Origin: a virus
Virus record (IMG/VR): IMGVR_UViG_3300046458_000091
Span: 18,802-82,801 of that record
Strand: one strand, 5' to 3'
Length of the DNA stretch: 64,000 nucleotides
Under the pieces are notes generated by a model. That model saw nothing but the letters and a program-made list of their open reading frames with translations, was not told the origin of the DNA and ran no database searches. The position numbers and the translations under genes were made by a program. Positions within the stretch are counted from its first letter, which is position 1; each line of letters opens with the position of its first letter. Shown here piece after piece: positions 16,848 through 62,922 of this stretch.

Positions 16848-19800
16848 CTACTTTTCGAGCACGATCAAACGCCCCCCGGCGTCGGTTTGCGCCAGCAGGT
16901 TTTTATCCTTGAAGGTGCCGCCTTCCAGGGGTTCGACCGTGGCGTCATGGGACTCAAGCCAGGCCCTGAAGGACGTCGCCGCCGCATCTCGACCGAAGAA
17001 AACCCCTTCCCCTGCGATGGCTACCAGCGTTCCGCCAGGCGCCAACATGCCGAAGGCGCGCATGATGTGAGCGGCGTCCCGGCGATTGCTAAAGGGTGGG
17101 TTCATGATGATGGCCGGGTACGGCTGTTCCGGCGTGAAGGTGTCGAAGTCGTTGCCAACCACGTTGTAGCCCTTGGCCGTGAGGATCTCGCGCAGCTGGT
17201 CGGACAGCTCGATGACATCCACTTCCCCGCCAGCAGCCTTTGCAGCGTCCGCCAGGTTGCCATTGCCCGCGCTGGGCTCCAGTACCCGCATGCCTTTCTT
17301 GATACCCGCCAGGGTGGCCATACGCTGCGCCAGGTGCGCAGGGGTAGGGAAGAAATCCAGGCCCACTTTCTGGCCGATGATGGCCCGTTCAGCTTTCTTG
17401 ATGGGGTCCTCTTCGACCTTTGCAACCATCATCGGAATCAGCTCGCGCACGGCGGCCTGCATGGTGGCCACGTCGGTGATGCCCATGCGCGCCAGCCGAT
17501 CTGTCTTGGCGATGGCCTCCATGGGGGCCTCCAGAATCCATGAGCCGGTGCCGGTGCCTTTTAGCGCGTCGTTGGCCTTACGGGTAATGGCCATGTCCTC
17601 GCTGTTCATGGTGAAGCGCTCAGACCGCTGGCCCATCTTGGCCAGGGCTGCAATCAGTCGGCTGTTACCTTTGGGGTTCTGCTTGGCGATGGCTTCCGAC
17701 GCCTTACGGAAACGTTCAGACCATGTGATCAGGCTCGGCATAGTGACGTGCTTGAGGTCGTTATCATCGACCGGGCGGCCTTTGCGGCTCAGCTGCTCGC
17801 TGTAGCTCAGATGCTTATCAGCTTCGTATTGCGCAAGGTGCAGCGCCTTTTGCAGCTCTTCCAACTGGGCCCGGCTCGACAGCTTGGCCAGCAAACCGGC
17901 TGTACCGTTTTCGATGGCGTCGGCGATGTTGTTCAACGTCTGGCCAGCGGCTTTGTCGTAGGAAGCGCGAGCGACGGAACTGGCGGCCATACCAGCACGC
18001 CGGGCGGTGTTGGTGTTGCGCTCCTGGTTCATGCCCGCGTGACCGGTCTCTACGGCTTTATTCGCCACAGCACGCAGCTTTTCCACCTGGTTGGACAGCG
18101 CCTTTTGCGCGCGCTCTGCGGCCTGGCGTTCTGCGGTGGCGAGCTGCTCGGCCTGCTGTTCTGGAGACAGCACGACCGGCGCCTGGGCGGCCGGGATGTG
18201 GGCGGTCTCGCCGGACAAGTACTTCTCGCGGATGAAGTACCCGCCGTTCATGCGCCAGGTGTACGGGTCGATTTCCTTGGCTTGCGCCTGGGTCAGGTCG
18301 GTGCGGATGATGCCGCGCAGCACCTTGTCGCGCTTGGTGGTGTATTCAATGATCTGGTGGGCCACGTCGGACGCTGGCGGCGGCTCAGGCGCCTCAGCTG
18401 GCTCCGGCTCCGACAGTTCGCCCTCAATGAACATATTCAGGACCAGCCCGCCCATATCATCCAGCATGACATCGGCGTTTTCGTGTTCTACACTTGCCCC
18501 TGACGGATGCCCTGAATAGTTATCAGGGGAACATCTGCCCCCTAAAGCGGTGCTTGTTGAATCAAGCATCGCTTTTTCTTTGGGCGGGTCAATCATCAGG
18601 TCGTAATACAGATGACCCATGTTGTCTTTCTCGACGACCACCCGTACCGCTATCGACTCTCCCGCCAACGCCACGACGCTGCTCAGGTTGTAATAGCCCA
18701 CGACCTGGGGCTTTTTGTCGAGCTTGAAATTCTGCACAAACTCGGCCGCCGTGGCGCTCGCCAGGATCTGCGGCACCGCATGCAGCAATTTGATTTTCTT
18801 GGGGTTGCCGCTGAACGCCAACGTCTCCTTGATGCCGCGCTGTCGAATTTCGACCTGGGCCCCAAGCACCGGGCAATTCACCATCTGCCCGCGCATAGCC
18901 TTCAAATACGCTTCAGCAGCGCCCCGCAAGGCCTTCTTGCCCTCAGGGGTGTCCGGGAACTCTCCGAACTCAGTGCCGGTTAACTCAATCGGCGGCTTCG
19001 GTACGTCCGGCTCTTCAGCTGTCTGGTCTTGCTGGGCGGCCTGCTCAAGCGGTATGACAATTCCGCCTTTCTCCACAAAGCTCGCCAGCGTTACGCCGGG
19101 AGCCAGGGAAAATGGCTTAGATTGGGCACGTAGGTTATTGAGCACTACGCCATCTTGCCGCAACTGAGCCAATGCGCTGGGACCTTCGGCGTTCGCCCCC
19201 TGGAGTTGCAGGCTGCCCAGCGTATTGCGGTCGGAGCGGCCGGTTTTCTCAAGGCACTCAACGATTTTGTATTTAGCCCGTGCGACCTGGAATTCACGAA
19301 GAGGCAACTTATCGATACGGCTGGCCGCGTACAGGCTGAATGTATCGAAGCCCACCGCCTTCGCTGCATACTGGTCGGCCGCGTCTGAATCGTCGCCTTT
19401 GGCCTCTTGCTCGGACGGCGCCGCAGGCTGCTCGATTTCCGGCATGACGGCCAGCTTGCGGGCCGCCTCCACCAGCGCGTCAAAGTCCTTGCCGACGATA
19501 CGAATACCGTTACCGCCACCCGGGAGGCGGTAGCTCAACGTCAAGCCAAGTTCCTGCTTTTCCACGCGCGCCCAGGAGCCGACCGGCGTGCTACTGATCT
19601 TGCGGCTCACTACGCCCTGGTTATGGCGCTGATCGTACGGCAGGGTGTCGAGCCAGGAGACGAACGCGGTGGCCAGCACCTTCTGCTGGGCAATCATGCT
19701 GTCATAGCCAGCCTCAGCCGGTGGCATATCCGGCCGGGCGAATACGGGGTTTGCGCCGCCTTCAAAGCCTGCCCGGGTCAGGAACATGTTATTGGCGTTT

Positions 19801-20456
19801 TCCAGCACCCATACGGTGCCCAGCTTGCCCGCCCGGTAGTTGCGCAGGACGTAGCCGTTGGCCTTGGCCGCCTTGATGCCCTCCAGCGTGGCCCTGGCCG
19901 CTTCTGCGCCTCGATCTGCCTCACCATTGATGGTGACTGTCGCCGTGAACGAAAGGTGCTGTACGTTGCCCTGGTAGAACCAGACAGACGTATCTGCCCG
20001 GCTGTTGATGGCGTCGGCCTTCAGAGAGCCCGCAGGCGTGAGCACGTCGGCGGCCTTGACCATGTGCGGCTTGTTGTTAGCCGTAGCGATGTCGCGGGCT
20101 TTCCCGGCCTCCCAGGCGGCGGCCTCATCCCGGTCAGAGATGGCCTTTATGGCAGCGCTAAGGCGGTCAATTGCCGCGCCAGCGGCCGGGCTGACGTGCC
20201 CTGTGTTCAGCAGCTTTTCGTACTGGTCCAGGTCAGCCCGGGCCGCTTCACGTTCCGCAATGAGCGGGTCAGTCTCCGGCGCTGGCCGGGCGGCGCCCAG
20301 GATGGCGCGCAGCTCCAGGCCCCGGGCACTGGCCCGCACCTTCTCGATGGCGCTCAGCGTCCCGGCCTCCAGGCTGTCGCGGATCTGCAACAACTCAGCG
20401 CTGAAACGCATTAACTCTAAAGAGTTATAACTCTTTAACTCTATTGTCTCAGTCAT
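16848..20456 (-). CDS. Giant polyvalent protein: LPD3-like domain plus N6-adenine methyltransferase (Dar-like)
   Basis: 1202 residues. Residues 11-54 resemble the N-terminus of the 20449 product. About 505-625 match the polyvalent LPD3 pattern (AEAYLKAMRGQMVNCPVL, then GHLYYDLMID). AMLDS is at 629-633 and VMLDD at 663-667. The C-terminus is a Rossmann methyltransferase: DFFPTPAHLAQRM, motif I LEPSAGNGN (about 1058), motif IV NPPF (about 1119), so it should methylate adenine. Polyvalent proteins of this kind protect incoming phage DNA, as DarB of P1 does; packaging in the virion is inferred. The start overlaps the upstream stop (ATGACTGA); a second in-frame ATG is 45 bp downstream, after an octamer array. 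Confidence 0.85.
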   Translation of the reverse strand: MTETIELKSYNSLELMRFSAELLQIRDSLEAGTLSAIEKVRASARGLELRAILGAARPAPETDPLIAEREAARADLDQYEKLLNTGHVSPAAGAAIDRLSAAIKAISDRDEAAAWEAGKARDIATANNKPHMVKAADVLTPAGSLKADAINSRADTSVWFYQGNVQHLSFTATVTINGEADRGAEAARATLEGIKAAKANGYVLRNYRAGKLGTVWVLENANNMFLTRAGFEGGANPVFARPDMPPAEAGYDSMIAQQKVLATAFVSWLDTLPYDQRHNQGVVSRKISSTPVGSWARVEKQELGLTLSYRLPGGGNGIRIVGKDFDALVEAARKLAVMPEIEQPAAPSEQEAKGDDSDAADQYAAKAVGFDTFSLYAASRIDKLPLREFQVARAKYKIVECLEKTGRSDRNTLGSLQLQGANAEGPSALAQLRQDGVVLNNLRAQSKPFSLAPGVTLASFVEKGGIVIPLEQAAQQDQTAEEPDVPKPPIELTGTEFGEFPDTPEGKKALRGAAEAYLKAMRGQMVNCPVLGAQVEIRQRGIKETLAFSGNPKKIKLLHAVPQILASATAAEFVQNFKLDKKPQVVGYYNLSSVVALAGESIAVRVVVEKDNMGHLYYDLMIDPPKEKAMLDSTSTALGGRCSPDNYSGHPSGASVEHENADVMLDDMGGLVLNMFIEGELSEPEPAEAPEPPPASDVAHQIIEYTTKRDKVLRGIIRTDLTQAQAKEIDPYTWRMNGGYFIREKYLSGETAHIPAAQAPVVLSPEQQAEQLATAERQAAERAQKALSNQVEKLRAVANKAVETGHAGMNQERNTNTARRAGMAASSVARASYDKAAGQTLNNIADAIENGTAGLLAKLSSRAQLEELQKALHLAQYEADKHLSYSEQLSRKGRPVDDNDLKHVTMPSLITWSERFRKASEAIAKQNPKGNSRLIAALAKMGQRSERFTMNSEDMAITRKANDALKGTGTGSWILEAPMEAIAKTDRLARMGITDVATMQAAVRELIPMMVAKVEEDPIKKAERAIIGQKVGLDFFPTPAHLAQRMATLAGIKKGMRVLEPSAGNGNLADAAKAAGGEVDVIELSDQLREILTAKGYNVVGNDFDTFTPEQPYPAIIMNPPFSNRRDAAHIMRAFGMLAPGGTLVAIAGEGVFFGRDAAATSFRAWLESHDATVEPLEGGTFKDKNLLAQTDAGGRLIVLEK
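20413..20444. repeat. AACTCTWW octamer array (4 units) inside the 5' end of the polyvalent gene
   Basis: Units of exactly 8 bp start at 20413, 20421 (inverted), 20429 and 20437. They encode residues ELKSYNSLEL of the polyvalent protein or, if the second ATG is used, form its leader. Probable binding site for the RHH protein at 32135. Confidence 0.7.
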
Positions 20457-22810: not shown

Positions 22811-23524
22811 TCAGGCCGCTACGGCGGGGGTTTGCTCGACAACTGGGCGTTCCACGAACACGAAACGCTCCATGAAATGCTCAAGCGTGTGCAGCTCGGT
22901 GGCCGTCGTGTTGGGGCTGCGGATTTCCACGTCCATACCTTTCAGATTCGCCAGGTCGGAGATGTCCAGGGAATCCAATATCCAGCGGCGCTGCTTATGC
23001 GGCAAGGTGAAGCGCGGGTGCTCGGTGAAGATGTCGCCGATCTTCCAGTTAACCGGCTTGCGCATGTCCGGCTGACGCGGCTTTTCGGCCTGCTCCTGGA
23101 CTGGCACAGGCTCGGCCGCAGCTGCTGGACCCGGGGGCGGTGGAGGCGGCAACAGTTCCGGCTCCACGTCGCACGGCAGATAGACGCCGAACGGAATCGC
23201 CAGGCTCTGCCCACCTGGTGGCGCATGCACCTTCAGCGTGGGCGTCACGTCCGGCACCAGTTCCGGCAGCGCGGGCGGCTCTTCCAACGCCAGCACAGGG
23301 CACGCCAGCAGATCAGCGAACGTCTTGTACAGGCCCGTTGCGGGCTCGATGGGCACGCATACATGGCCTAGGCCTGCGAGGGTCACATTCAGTTCCGCCA
23401 GCAGCCTGGGAAACGATCCAGCGCCGACAATCAGGACCTGCCGGGCCTTCTCTACGTCCTCCTTGGTCTGCACCAGCTCGCGCAACACCTGGTCACAGCC
23501 CCGCGATACCTTCTCTTCGCTCAT
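22811..23524 (-). CDS. Hypothetical early protein upstream of the polyvalent genes
   Basis: I chose the ATG at 23522-23524 (MSEEKVSRGCDQVL...), which has AAGGTGAAGG upstream. The 237-residue protein has an N-terminal alpha/beta part (KARQVLIVGAGSFPRLLAEL, a nucleotide-binding-like turn but without a proven motif), a Pro-rich linker (LLPPPPPPGPAAAAEPVPV) and a C-terminal domain (WKIGDIFTEHPRFTLPHKQRRWILDSL). An octamer array lies 45 bp upstream of the start, so the gene may be controlled by the RHH partition protein. Family unknown. Confidence 0.6.
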   Translation of the reverse strand: MSEEKVSRGCDQVLRELVQTKEDVEKARQVLIVGAGSFPRLLAELNVTLAGLGHVCVPIEPATGLYKTFADLLACPVLALEEPPALPELVPDVTPTLKVHAPPGGQSLAIPFGVYLPCDVEPELLPPPPPPGPAAAAEPVPVQEQAEKPRQPDMRKPVNWKIGDIFTEHPRFTLPHKQRRWILDSLDISDLANLKGMDVEIRSPNTTATELHTLEHFMERFVFVERPVVEQTPAVAA

Positions 23525-23568
23525 ACCCTTCACCTTATGTCTGCATTGGCCACCGTGGCCGGTGTGCA

Positions 23569-23634
23569 AACTCTAAACCTCTAAAACTCTTTAACTCTTT
23601 GGCATGTTTGCAGCCAAAAACTCTAAAACTCCGG
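23569..23634. repeat. AACTCTWW octamer array upstream of the 22811 gene
   Basis: Four units in 8-bp phase at 23569, 23577, 23585 and 23593, then a 18-bp break and two more at 23619 and 23627. Same repeat as at parA. Likely operator. Confidence 0.7.
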
Positions 23635-23643
23635 GCAATAAAA

Positions 23644-32134: not shown

Positions 32135-32431
32135 TCAGATCGACAACGGTGCTTCGTCGATCAGAGCGCCAATGATTTCCGACATCGTGCGGCCACGGTC
32201 AGCCGCCAGGAAGCGCAGTTTCTTTTTCTGCGCCGCACTGATGTACGTCTGGATACGCTCTTTGGCCCCCAGCTCCTTGACGCCTTGGTCTTTAACTTCC
32301 TTCACAGCCGACAAGGCCTTGGTGGCCACGGCGCCCAGAGCAGGCGCGGCGGGCTTTTTCTCGGGCGCGATTGCTGGCGTAGCGGGGGCGGGGGTCGGCT
32401 TGGAACGGTCTCGCAGTTTGATTCCGGTCAT
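32135..32431 (-). CDS. RHH partition protein / regulator (ParG/omega-like)
   Basis: 98 residues. Residues 1-52 are a mobile Lys/Pro/Ala-rich arm (LRDRSKPTPAPATPAIAPEKK), as in ParG, where the arm stimulates the ParA ATPase. Residues 56-98 (KERIQTYISAAQKKKLRFLA, ADRGRTMSEIIGALIDEA) form a ribbon-helix-helix. It lies directly after parA. Octamer arrays flank its start (32447-32498) and lie upstream of parA, so it should bind AACTCTWW repeats both as centromere protein and repressor. This specific binding is inferred, not shown. Confidence 0.82.
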   Translation of the reverse strand: MTGIKLRDRSKPTPAPATPAIAPEKKPAAPALGAVATKALSAVKEVKDQGVKELGAKERIQTYISAAQKKKLRFLAADRGRTMSEIIGALIDEAPLSI

Positions 32432-32446
32432 GACTCACCTGATAAA

Positions 32447-32498
32447 TTAGAGTTAAGAAGTTAAACACACTTTAACTCATTAACTCTTTTAACTCCAA
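32447..32498. repeat. Octamer array between parA and the RHH gene
   Basis: Units TTAGAGTT (inverted, 32447), AACTCATT (32474), AACTCTTT (32482) and AACTCCAA (32491), plus two degenerate units between. It covers the leader of the RHH gene and the parA stop; likely an autoregulatory site. Confidence 0.65.
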
Positions 32499-32499
32499 A

Positions 32500-33138
32500 T
32501 CACCGACCCAGCAGGGCCAGCACCTCAGCTTTCAGCTGACGCAGCTCGGATGCCGCAGCACAACGCGGGCGAGTATCCAGGGGCGTGCGGCCAATGGCTT
32601 GGGCCTTGGGGTGTTCCTGGCGAAAAGTGAGTGCGGTCTTCAGAACTGGGAGGTTGTAGCCCGCCAACGTTTCGGCAACCGTGTTGCTTAGGGTGGCGCC
32701 CTTAACTGAGCGCGTAATCAGGAAAACCGCCTGTAGCGTCTTGCCTGTGCCTTCCAGTTCCGCCTGCCGGGCTTCGATCATGTCCACCAGATCAGCGCAC
32801 GCCCACACGTCAAAGGGCGCAGGGGACACGGGGATAATCACCAGATCAGCAACCGCCAGCGTCAATTGAGTGAGTTTTGCCGCCTTGGCCAGGCCGTCAA
32901 CAATCACCAGATCGTTGTGCAGCTTGGGGATTTCAGCGACCAGCTGGGACTGCTTGATAGAGAACACGGTCATTGGCTGCTCTTCGTGCGCCTCGCTCCA
33001 CTCACGCAGGCTGCCCTGTACGTCCGAATCGACCAGAACCACGTCCAGGCCATCCAGCGCCATGGCGCGGCCCAGGCCCGTGACTGTGGTGGTTTTGCCT
33101 GCGCCGCCCTTGGGGTTCAACACCGCCATTACCGTCAT
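32500..33138 (-). CDS. parA: ParA partition ATPase (type Ib)
   Basis: Deviant Walker A NPKGGAGKTTT near the N-terminus, Walker A' LVDSDVQGS, and LVIVDG for Walker B identify a ParA/MinD-type ATPase. With about 213 residues and no N-terminal HTH it is the short type Ib, which pairs with an RHH protein encoded downstream, as here. I prefer the ATG at 33136-33138 because AAGG is well spaced from it; an in-frame ATG is at 33147. It moves plasmid copies to daughter cells. The upstream array at 33177 is the likely centromere and operator. Confidence 0.93.
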   Translation of the reverse strand: MTVMAVLNPKGGAGKTTTVTGLGRAMALDGLDVVLVDSDVQGSLREWSEAHEEQPMTVFSIKQSQLVAEIPKLHNDLVIVDGLAKAAKLTQLTLAVADLVIIPVSPAPFDVWACADLVDMIEARQAELEGTGKTLQAVFLITRSVKGATLSNTVAETLAGYNLPVLKTALTFRQEHPKAQAIGRTPLDTRPRCAAASELRQLKAEVLALLGR

Positions 33139-33176
33139 CTGAAACATCCTTTTGATATATGGGTTCGGCGCAGTGT

Positions 33177-33248
33177 AACTCTAAAACTCTAAAACTCAAT
33201 ACCTCTAAAACTCCTTAACTCATAAACTCTAAAACTCTTTAACTCCAG
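33177..33248. repeat. Nine tandem 8-bp repeats: candidate parS centromere and parA operator
   Basis: Nine contiguous units in perfect 8-bp phase: AACTCTAA, AACTCTAA, AACTCAAT, ACCTCTAA, AACTCCTT, AACTCATA, AACTCTAA, AACTCTTT, AACTCCAG. A minus-strand promoter (TTGAGT, 16 bp, TACACT) falls inside, so binding would repress parA. Confidence 0.85.
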
Positions 33249-33260
33249 ACAGGCACAAAA

Positions 33261-33281
33261 AAGCCCCGGAATACGGGGCTT
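33261..33281 (-). terminator. Rho-independent terminator
   Basis: AAGCCCCG / CGGGGCTT stem followed by TTTTTTGTGCC on the minus strand; ends the 33299 gene and insulates parA. Confidence 0.8.
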
Positions 33282-33535: not shown

Positions 33536-33647
33536 GTCTTCACACCTTTGAGTGGTTGTCATAAGCTGACGGAGCGAACATTATCATTTTGTTTATTTTA
33601 CGCAACTACAAAACATCATTTTGATGTATTTAATCGGAGACAGCACG

Positions 33648-35468: not shown

Positions 35469-36323
35469 CTAAACAGGCTTCAGAACGGCCCCCAGACGTG
35501 TCAGCGCCGCACTGGTTGTCTCTCCCGGCCTGGCCAACCGGCTCAGTTCGTATGCAGACAGCTGGACAGGCTTCTTGGGCTTCTCAGACCGCTTAGGCTT
35601 GGCGTTAGGCTGTTCAAGCACGAAATCTTTCGGCAGACGCTTGGTGTCAATGCTGAATTTCAGATGCGAGATTTTGCGCCCTGTGCGCATGACTTCGTAA
35701 TCAACCTGCAACGGGCTGTGCTCATTCACCTGATTGATGGCGGGCTCAATGACGTAACGACGCAGGTCAGCCATAAGAGTGTATTTGTCGTGCAGCTGAA
35801 GCCACTTGCGCAGATCCTCCAAGGCAATTTCCCTGGCTCCTACCGACGTGTACTGAATCAGCATTTCAAACAACCGAATGCCGTAGATGCTGGTCATCCG
35901 CGCCACATCTGATAAATGGTATCGCGTGAACTGAGCTTTCAACTCGGTGAGATATGGCAGCATGTCTTTGTTAAAGCGCAGGTTAATCGTGCCTTCCTGC
36001 TCGTTGTACACGATTGTCTGCACCCAACTGGCCTCAAGCGTCTTGGACTTAGGCCCGCCGCCATTGGGCTCTAGGTCTATGCTGACGTCACGTCGGCGCA
36101 GCTTACGGGATGCTTCAAACAGCTCCTTGTACATCGACTTGCTGTCCGAACCGGTCGCCAAGGCAATGTCCGAAACCGGTACGCTGTACATCACTTCGTC
36201 GGTGATCGGCGAACCGCGATCAACCTGCGCAATGCAAGCTAAGATAATGCGCTGCTCTGCTACGGACAGCGTGTATGACGCCTCAATCAGGGCGTTGGAT
36301 TTATAGATATTGTGGTCTGCCAT
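35469..36323 (-). CDS. repA: Rep_3-family plasmid replication initiator
   Basis: I use the ATG at 36321-36323, giving 284 residues; the frame upstream runs through the iterons and is not expected to be translated. The N-terminal winged helix starts with YKSNALIEASYTLSVAEQRIILACIAQ, characteristic of RepE/pi/TrfA-like initiators; the second contains MTSIYGIRLFEMLIQYTSV and LRKWLQLHDKYTLMADLRRYVIEPA. The last 40 residues are basic and Pro-rich. It binds the iterons upstream and starts plasmid replication. Overlap of iterons with its promoter suggests autoregulation. Confidence 0.92.
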   Translation of the reverse strand: MADHNIYKSNALIEASYTLSVAEQRIILACIAQVDRGSPITDEVMYSVPVSDIALATGSDSKSMYKELFEASRKLRRRDVSIDLEPNGGGPKSKTLEASWVQTIVYNEQEGTINLRFNKDMLPYLTELKAQFTRYHLSDVARMTSIYGIRLFEMLIQYTSVGAREIALEDLRKWLQLHDKYTLMADLRRYVIEPAINQVNEHSPLQVDYEVMRTGRKISHLKFSIDTKRLPKDFVLEQPNAKPKRSEKPKKPVQLSAYELSRLARPGETTSAALTRLGAVLKPV

Positions 36324-36840
36324 GGTCTTAATGTGGAAATCCTTTAGCGATCTTCCATGCTGACCCTGAATCACTCCACATTGCAACCCTGAATCACTCC
36401 ACATCCCACCCTGAATCACTCCACAATTGACCCTGAATCCCTCATAGTTAACCCTGAATAGCACCACATTTAAACGCTACAGGCCCCGTAATACGCGGCC
36501 TGTAGCGGTGCGAAAAGAAGAAAAGATTTAAAAGAAAAAGAAATAAAAAGCGAATTTAAGTTTTTGGGGGCGTAGGAGCGAGATTTGTGGCTAACCAGCA
36601 AAACGAGGGCTTTTGACCCTGAATCACTCCACATTTAGAGCGGGGCCTCTCGGCGCAGGCTTATCAGGGCGATAACTAAATGCCTGGAAAGCCTGTAAAC
36701 AAGGCGTCTGCGGGGTTACAGAAGGACGCGAAACAGGGCTGTGAGCCTTTAAGACAGCAGTACAGGGATTAAATCCACGATCAGCGGGTTTATTCCGCCA
36801 CTACACATCAAATGACCCTGAATCCCTCCACATTGAGCTA
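36324..36840. other. Replication origin region
   Basis: The gene-free stretch holds the five iterons, an A-rich block (36520-36560, GAAAAGAAGAAAAG...) suited to strand opening, and two further single iterons in the same orientation at 36616-36637 and 36814-36835. No perfect DnaA box (TTATNCACA) was noticed. An iteron origin is nearly certain in type; the exact start site is not visible. Confidence 0.8.
36361..36472. repeat. Five tandem iterons upstream of repA
   Basis: Copies of ACCCTGAATCACTCCACA begin (CCCT) at 36364, 36387, 36409, 36431 and 36452, spaced 21-23 bp, about two helical turns. The last two are degenerate. They are the expected Rep_3 binding sites. Confidence 0.9.
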
Positions 36841-51134: not shown

Positions 51135-51647
51135 TTACGGGGGTGTCAGACCGCTGGTTTCGGGCTCATCTGGGCGCGGGCTGAGCAGGTACAGGCGGGT
51201 GTATGGCGGGATGTTCAGATTGCCGGTCACATCGACGATTTCATAGTTCAGCAACAGGTTGCCGCCCATGAACAAGGTGACCAACATTCGCTTGGCGGGC
51301 TGCACATAACCTTCCGCGCCCGGGTTGGGGATTTGCTCGATAGACGCCTGGATATCGCCCGTTGGGTAGTTCAGGCGCGTTCCGTCGTCCGATGTGTTGC
51401 CAAGGTCAGGCGCGAACGGCTCAGCGAACACTACCCGGCCTTCGCAGGCGTACACCCACGAATAGTTGACCTCATCTTCGTCACTGATCATGCCCGCCCC
51501 GCCCAGCGTCGGGCTGCCATCAAAGGCGCTGCTGTCTGACTCGCGGTCAACCTGCTTTGTGTATAGCGCGCAGTCGATGGCGTTGGCGTCCCGCAGCGTG
51601 CGCTGGCGGTTTGCGCGGTTGACCTGGATAGCCACGTTGTTAAGCAC
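51135..51647 (-). CDS. Structural (neck/head) protein under octamer control
   Basis: 170 residues; GTG start at 51645-51647. Its ribosome site AAGGAG is part of the octamer array (AACTCCTT on the opposite strand), so repressor binding and translation signals coincide. The protein has blocks DCALYTKQVDRESDSSAFDG, VNYSWVYACEGRVVFAEPFA, LNYPTGDIQASIEQIPNPGA and MLVTLFMGGNLLLNYEIVDV, beta-rich. Position between SWIM gene and portal suggests a neck or head-completion protein. Confidence 0.58.
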   Translation of the reverse strand: MLNNVAIQVNRANRQRTLRDANAIDCALYTKQVDRESDSSAFDGSPTLGGAGMISDEDEVNYSWVYACEGRVVFAEPFAPDLGNTSDDGTRLNYPTGDIQASIEQIPNPGAEGYVQPAKRMLVTLFMGGNLLLNYEIVDVTGNLNIPPYTRLYLLSPRPDEPETSGLTPP

Positions 51648-51650
51648 TTT

Positions 51651-51698
51651 AACTCCTTAACTCTTTAGAGTTTTAACTCTTAAACTCTTTAACTCTGC
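51651..51698. repeat. AACTCTWW octamer array (6 units) at the 51135 gene
   Basis: Units in perfect 8-bp phase at 51651, 51659, 51667 (inverted), 51675, 51683 and 51691. It covers the end of the 51689 gene and the leader of the 51135 gene. Confidence 0.75.
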
Positions 51699-62843: not shown

Positions 62844-62852
62844 AACAGAGCT

Positions 62853-62892
62853 TTAGAGTTAAAGAGTTTTAGAGTTAAAACTCTTTAGAGTT
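62853..62892. repeat. AACTCTWW octamer array (5 units) upstream of terS
   Basis: Units in 8-bp phase: TTAGAGTT (62853), AAAGAGTT (62861), TTAGAGTT (62869), AAAACTCT (62877), TTAGAGTT (62885). Mixed orientation, as at 51651. Confidence 0.72.
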
Positions 62893-62922
62893 AAAGCGCT
62901 CTTGCTATGAGTCGGTGAAAAG

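Follow-up and report, generated by a model that had tools for sequence, protein, structure and literature searches.

Dispersed 8-bp arrays accompany a ParF/ParG-like module in a probable phage-plasmid: candidate sites of a ParG-type partition protein

Upstream of a parA gene in a viral genome (IMG/VR record IMGVR_UViG_3300046458_000091; "the window" is the 64,000-bp stretch analysed here, positions 18,802 to 82,801 of that record) lies an array of 8-bp repeats, which raises the question whether this array is the centromere of a type Ib partition system and whether its repeats spell a new DNA code, as an earlier note on this DNA had proposed. We consider it probable (roughly 80%), on the comparisons set out below, that the array is the par-proximal site of a type Ib ParF/ParG-type partition system in a tailed phage persisting as a plasmid, and that about ten further arrays are sites of the same RHH protein. 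The 8-bp code itself is already known from ParG; the unusual feature is its dispersal over the whole genome.

The main array comprises nine lattice positions at an exact 8-bp pitch, with the unit WAACTCYW (W-AACTC-Y-W). AACTC starts at 33177, 33185, 33193, 33209, 33217, 33225, 33233 and 33241, that is, with spacings of 8, 8, 16, 8, 8, 8 and 8 bp, and the remaining position, 33201, reads ACCTC. The period of exactly 8 claimed for 33177-33248 was thus recovered at these coordinates, while the "nine perfect tandem repeats" of the earlier note are exact in their spacing but not in their units, eight of which carry AACTC and one ACCTC (TRF: period 8, 7.8 copies, 75% matches). The array is placed between parA and a terminator-like hairpin, which the terminator scan did not list and whose GGGGCTTTTTT is kept upstream of the par array in six phages. 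A promoter-like element, TTGAGT-16-TACACT, lies inside the array and aligns with TTGCGT-16-TAGAAT in all five sister phages described below. The proposed overlap of the array with the parA promoter is therefore plausible, but the element matches the promoter consensus at only 8 of 12 positions, and the consensus sigma-70 promoter scan returned nothing above its threshold at the main array. The imperfect unit at 33201 abuts the -35-like hexamer TTGAGT and may owe its ACCTC to this adjacency.

The ParFGH-like layout that had been read from a ParA gene followed by an RHH gene holds up, with both genes on the same strand (Table 1). ParA, whose start is possibly the ATG at 33138, belongs to the short ParF group without an N-terminal HTH, and its best PDB matches are ParF (4dzz) and TP228 ParA (5u1g), with E of about 8e-29 over residues 4-210. 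For the small RHH-protein gene just downstream, the Pfam match (RHH_5, E 5e-4) is weak and below cut-off, and its profile matches that of ParG-type RHH proteins (hhalign, probability 94.3, E 1e-7). A sequence search of PDB chains with the RHH protein gave no match, and a single-sequence AlphaFold model was poor (mean pLDDT 64) and showed no strand. The IKxRxR motif of its N-terminal tail is common to the RHH proteins of all six phages and may correspond in function to the arginine-finger tail of ParG. These comparisons support a ParF/ParG-like type Ib module, with the main array sitting where a parH/OF-type centromere-operator would be expected. The 82,801-bp record also encodes a tail sheath, the terminase small subunit and DarA-like proteins, and we regard it as a phage-plasmid, probably of Pseudomonas, because complete Pseudomonas plasmids of 81-95 kb with phage genes are among its relatives. 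About five 22-bp tandem repeats at 36363-36473, likely replication iterons, overlap the start of its Rep3 initiator ORF.

Table 1. Features of the locus and of related sequences. Coordinates given with L004 follow the numbering of the full 82,801-bp record and the others, unless another sequence is named, that of the window; gene calls and g-numbers are home-made in this analysis.
Feature	Coordinates	Strand	Basis or remark
Main array, candidate centromere/operator	33177..33248 (33174-33248 in cluster scan)	-	five sister phages have a homologous array here
Terminator-like hairpin and T run, between upstream gene and main array	33257..33279	-	sequence
Promoter-like element inside main array	33172..33199	-	TTGAGT (33194-33199), 16 bp, TACACT (33172-33177)
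parA, ParF-like Walker ATPase, 215 aa	32500..33147	-	Pfam CbiA/AAA_31, PHROG ParA-like, PDB ParF 4dzz
Second par-proximal array, parA-RHH gap	32450..32498	.	3 exact units plus inverted/degenerate units
RHH protein, ParG-like, 98 aa, long N-terminal tail with IKxRxR	32135..32431	-	profile match, sister alignment
Rep3-type replication initiator, plasmid replication module	35469..36467	-	Pfam; own 22-bp repeats
Dispersed array (><>>), extreme 5' coding part of 1202-aa gene 16848-20456 (g59)	20410..20444	.	position in 6/6 phages
Dispersed array upstream of gene 22811-23524	23566..23635	.	position in 6/6 phages; 3 exact units and one degenerate, then a 2-unit block
Dispersed array (>><>>>) between two tail-region genes (g96/g95)	51647..51698	.	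lattice scan
Dispersed array (<<<><) between transcription-regulator gene and terminase small subunit gene	62847..62896	.	lattice scan, TRF
Five arrays in the record part before the window	L004 6991-7038, 10613-10663, 12111-12146, 12215-12249, 15235-15277		lattice scan
ACATCNTTTTGATRTAT motif sites	33144-33160, 33613-33629, 574-590; L004 6931-6947, 12088-12104
GATATC/GGTATC/GATACC repeats of relatives	L005 6240-6560 (CP048608); G013:C1 4130-4400

The pitch of ParG boxes was measured on the sequence of a TP228-type plasmid, an IncX1 plasmid whose ParG we take to be that of TP228: it is 100% identical to the 76-aa TP228 sequence, and the records are annotated "plasmid partition protein ParG". 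Upstream of parF this plasmid carries 16 ACTC/GAGT boxes in both orientations, spaced by 8, 16 or 24 bp and centred, like those of the phage array, on AC|TC; eight box pairs stand 8 bp apart, against a shuffle mean of 0.04. The "tetramer boxes with AT-rich spacers" of ParG are thus evidently an 8-bp ACTC lattice, and the phage likewise has such boxes, ACTC-type and separated by AT-rich spacers, ahead of parA. Since this lattice is the ParG code, the suggestion that an 8-bp module would be a different repeat code finds no support. The ParA relatives of Competibacteraceae and Chromatiaceae also have GAGT boxes at an 8-bp pitch just before parA, the ACTC lattice of the Competibacteraceae being short.

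The whole record was scanned on both strands for places where three or more AACTC units stand on an 8-bp lattice. This gave 11 clusters, where 0.02 are expected by chance (mean over 100 dinucleotide-preserving shuffles), and in an unbiased k-mer search AACTC stood out among the clustered words of this genome. The idea of a unique array with a new 8-bp code was rejected on these 11 arrays together with the ACTC lattice of the ParG plasmid. There is a lattice array on either side of parA. The units point both ways, and with the centre placed at AAC|TC the distance between the centres of inverted neighbours is again 8 bp, a register that one dimer per 8 bp, bound in either direction, would be expected to produce. 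In some arrays, that at 51647-51698 among them, the unit closest to a start codon is GGAGTT when read on the strand of the gene, and might also serve as a Shine-Dalgarno sequence. The near-palindrome ACATCNTTTTGATRTAT is found next to several arrays and also in the gap of a divergent promoter, and may be an operator for a different phage regulator. AACTC triplets also occur in other IMG/VR contigs (L006-L014), none of which encodes a ParA relative.

Five sister phages from IMG/VR (G012 and G015-G018; 78-86 kb, metagenomic and possibly incomplete records) encode a ParA 53-57% identical to that of this phage (G000), with an RHH gene adjacent. Single-sequence searches of viral contigs with the RHH or the Rep protein gave no matches, but an alignment of two sequences did. 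The regions upstream of parA align almost gap-free, unit by unit, across the six phages, always in the order terminator, array, parA. The boxes of the sisters are mainly RCGY (GCGC, ACGC, GCGT) on the same 8-bp lattice, not ACTC. With an iterated lattice profile, the sisters' arrays scored above every shuffle, and each of the six phages has 9-12 dispersed 8-bp arrays; the degenerate arrays in G012 and the four other sisters overturned the view, drawn from exact k-mer searches, that dispersal is unique to this phage. Positions common to all six lie upstream of parA, g61, g29 and g23, at the g60/g59 junction and after g24; for G000 and G012 alone, the chance of sharing six sites by random choice among 100 or 60 gaps is about 3e-5 to 6e-4. 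A weak lattice match inside g108 of the sisters is coding, probably reflects plain sequence conservation and was left out of this count. Beyond the shared set, this phage has further arrays, such as that between g96 and g95, which has no match in G012, where the g96/g95 gap measures only 9 bp.

Four relatives of the same phage type, encoding another ParA (about 25% identical), gave no array when scanned with the G000 box; the G012 box gave two isolated, marginal matches. Because arrays accompany the ParA/RHH module in six of six phages and are essentially absent from these four relatives, the arrays evidently go with this module, and their dispersal is a trait of this phage lineage. A closed g60/g59 gap as a mark of relatives lacking the module was considered and dropped, because here, too, the two genes overlap, with the array in the 5' coding part.

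The box and the putative DNA-binding strand of the RHH protein differ together. The strand reads KERIQTY in this phage, KERLN[SP]Y in the five sisters and KRVNVN in ParG, and by the standard RHH pattern the differing residue (Q for N) would face the DNA. The box is ACGC/GCGT in the sisters versus ACTC/GAGT here, a single-base difference at a fixed place in the unit, and some sister units are already GAGT/ACTC. This co-difference is an association only, stemming from a single evolutionary change. It is tempting to speculate, with the odds somewhat against it, that some ten arrays across the genome and a ParG-type RHH protein form a distributed centromere/operator network whose box switched in concert at all sites (ACGC/GCGT to or from ACTC) with one DNA-facing strand residue (N/Q).

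Under the reading as a partition system, each 8-bp unit would hold one RHH dimer, centred on AC|TC whichever way the unit points, and dimers would coat each array cooperatively. On the main array, this coat would repress the embedded parA-RHH promoter, providing autoregulation, and the par-proximal complex would stimulate nucleoid-bound ParA through the RHH N-terminal tail. The roughly ten distant arrays, bound by the same RHH protein, would join a multi-site partition complex and probably double as operators of phage genes close by. Against this stands that a role of distant arrays in partition is not seen in two ParG-type plasmids: in the TP228-type plasmid (L085) lattice boxes lie only beside parF, and L086 has no lattice run of at least three boxes. 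A variant that keeps RHH binding at all arrays, with the par-proximal ones as centromeres and the distant ones serving transcription control only, as in a KorB-like prophage regulon, comes close to an even chance. Most arrays indeed occupy short gaps that immediately precede a gene start on the transcribed strand, and one separates a regulator gene from the terminase gene; however, since the genome is 91% coding with almost all genes on one strand, nearly every gap is upstream of a gene, and location cannot separate partition from gene control. The conserved array inside the 5' coding part of g59 speaks against transcription control alone, yet does not say which function it has.

It is improbable that the arrays serve a different DNA-binding protein of the phage, such as a repressor, as operators unrelated to partition. 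Phages commonly have several repressor operators, and ACATCNTTTTGATRTAT stands beside some arrays as a second motif; nevertheless, the code equals that of ParG plasmids, the arrays lie on both sides of parA, and they occur with the ParF/RHH module in six of six phages but essentially not in the relatives with another ParA. Still less credible are iterons of the plasmid replication initiator, for although iterons are short direct repeats and the Rep3-type protein is encoded 2.3 kb away, that initiator has its own 22-bp repeats, and mixed-orientation arrays at 11 loci are unlike an origin. Slippage can create tandem short units, but an origin as neutral microsatellite-like repeats is already contradicted by inverted units that hold the 8-bp register, by 11 loci where 0.02 are expected and by positions conserved in six phages though the box sequence changed.

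Compared with known systems, the locus most resembles ParFGH of TP228 (type Ib, with ParG, the parH centromere and the OF operator), with which it shares a ParF-like ATPase, a downstream RHH gene and, upstream of parA, ACTC boxes that lie 8 bp apart with spacers of 4 bp, face either way and have an identical centre. It differs from TP228 in having about 11 arrays around an 83-kb genome rather than a lattice confined to the vicinity of parF, in the RCGY box of the five sisters and in the longer N-terminal tail of its RHH protein. In the delta-omega system of pSM19035, six parS sites of 7-10 repeats each overlap the copS, delta and omega promoters (PMC9499535). Here, too, an RHH protein would bind tandem direct and inverted repeats at several promoters, but the unit is WAACTCYW at pitch 8 instead of the 7-bp WATCACW heptad, and the arrays lie also among structural and unknown genes, whereas the pSM19035 sites lie at plasmid maintenance promoters. 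The SopB sites of the N15 prophage-plasmid are dispersed over its genome. Thus, both are prophage-plasmids with several sites, here candidate ones, for a partition protein; unlike SopB, an HTH ParB that spreads from palindromic inverted repeats, the protein here is RHH-like, with arrays of non-palindromic ACTC units. The natural SopB sites of the SopABC system number four (IR1-4; PMC7205306).

Many conserved sites of a ParG-type partition protein around one phage genome appear to be new, provisionally so, as our literature searches, with most subscription papers outside their scope, found no paper describing such dispersed arrays. About ten sites at conserved places in a phage-plasmid family make it testable whether a ParG-type protein uses many centromeres on one replicon or serves there as a global prophage regulator. 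Moreover, across the six phages an RHH protein and its short DNA code diverge around unchanged site positions, a natural series for studying the RHH recognition code as well as incompatibility among plasmids and phages.

In relatives whose ParA differs, the region upstream of parA holds other repeats, built from GATATC/GGTATC/GATACC words, which show no sign of dispersal in a k-mer search and are probably another partition-site code. Between the protelomerase and parA genes of Vibrio phage vB_VpaM_MAR (L023 3260-3500), many TGTACA/GTACAT words form a candidate partition-site array of yet a different code.
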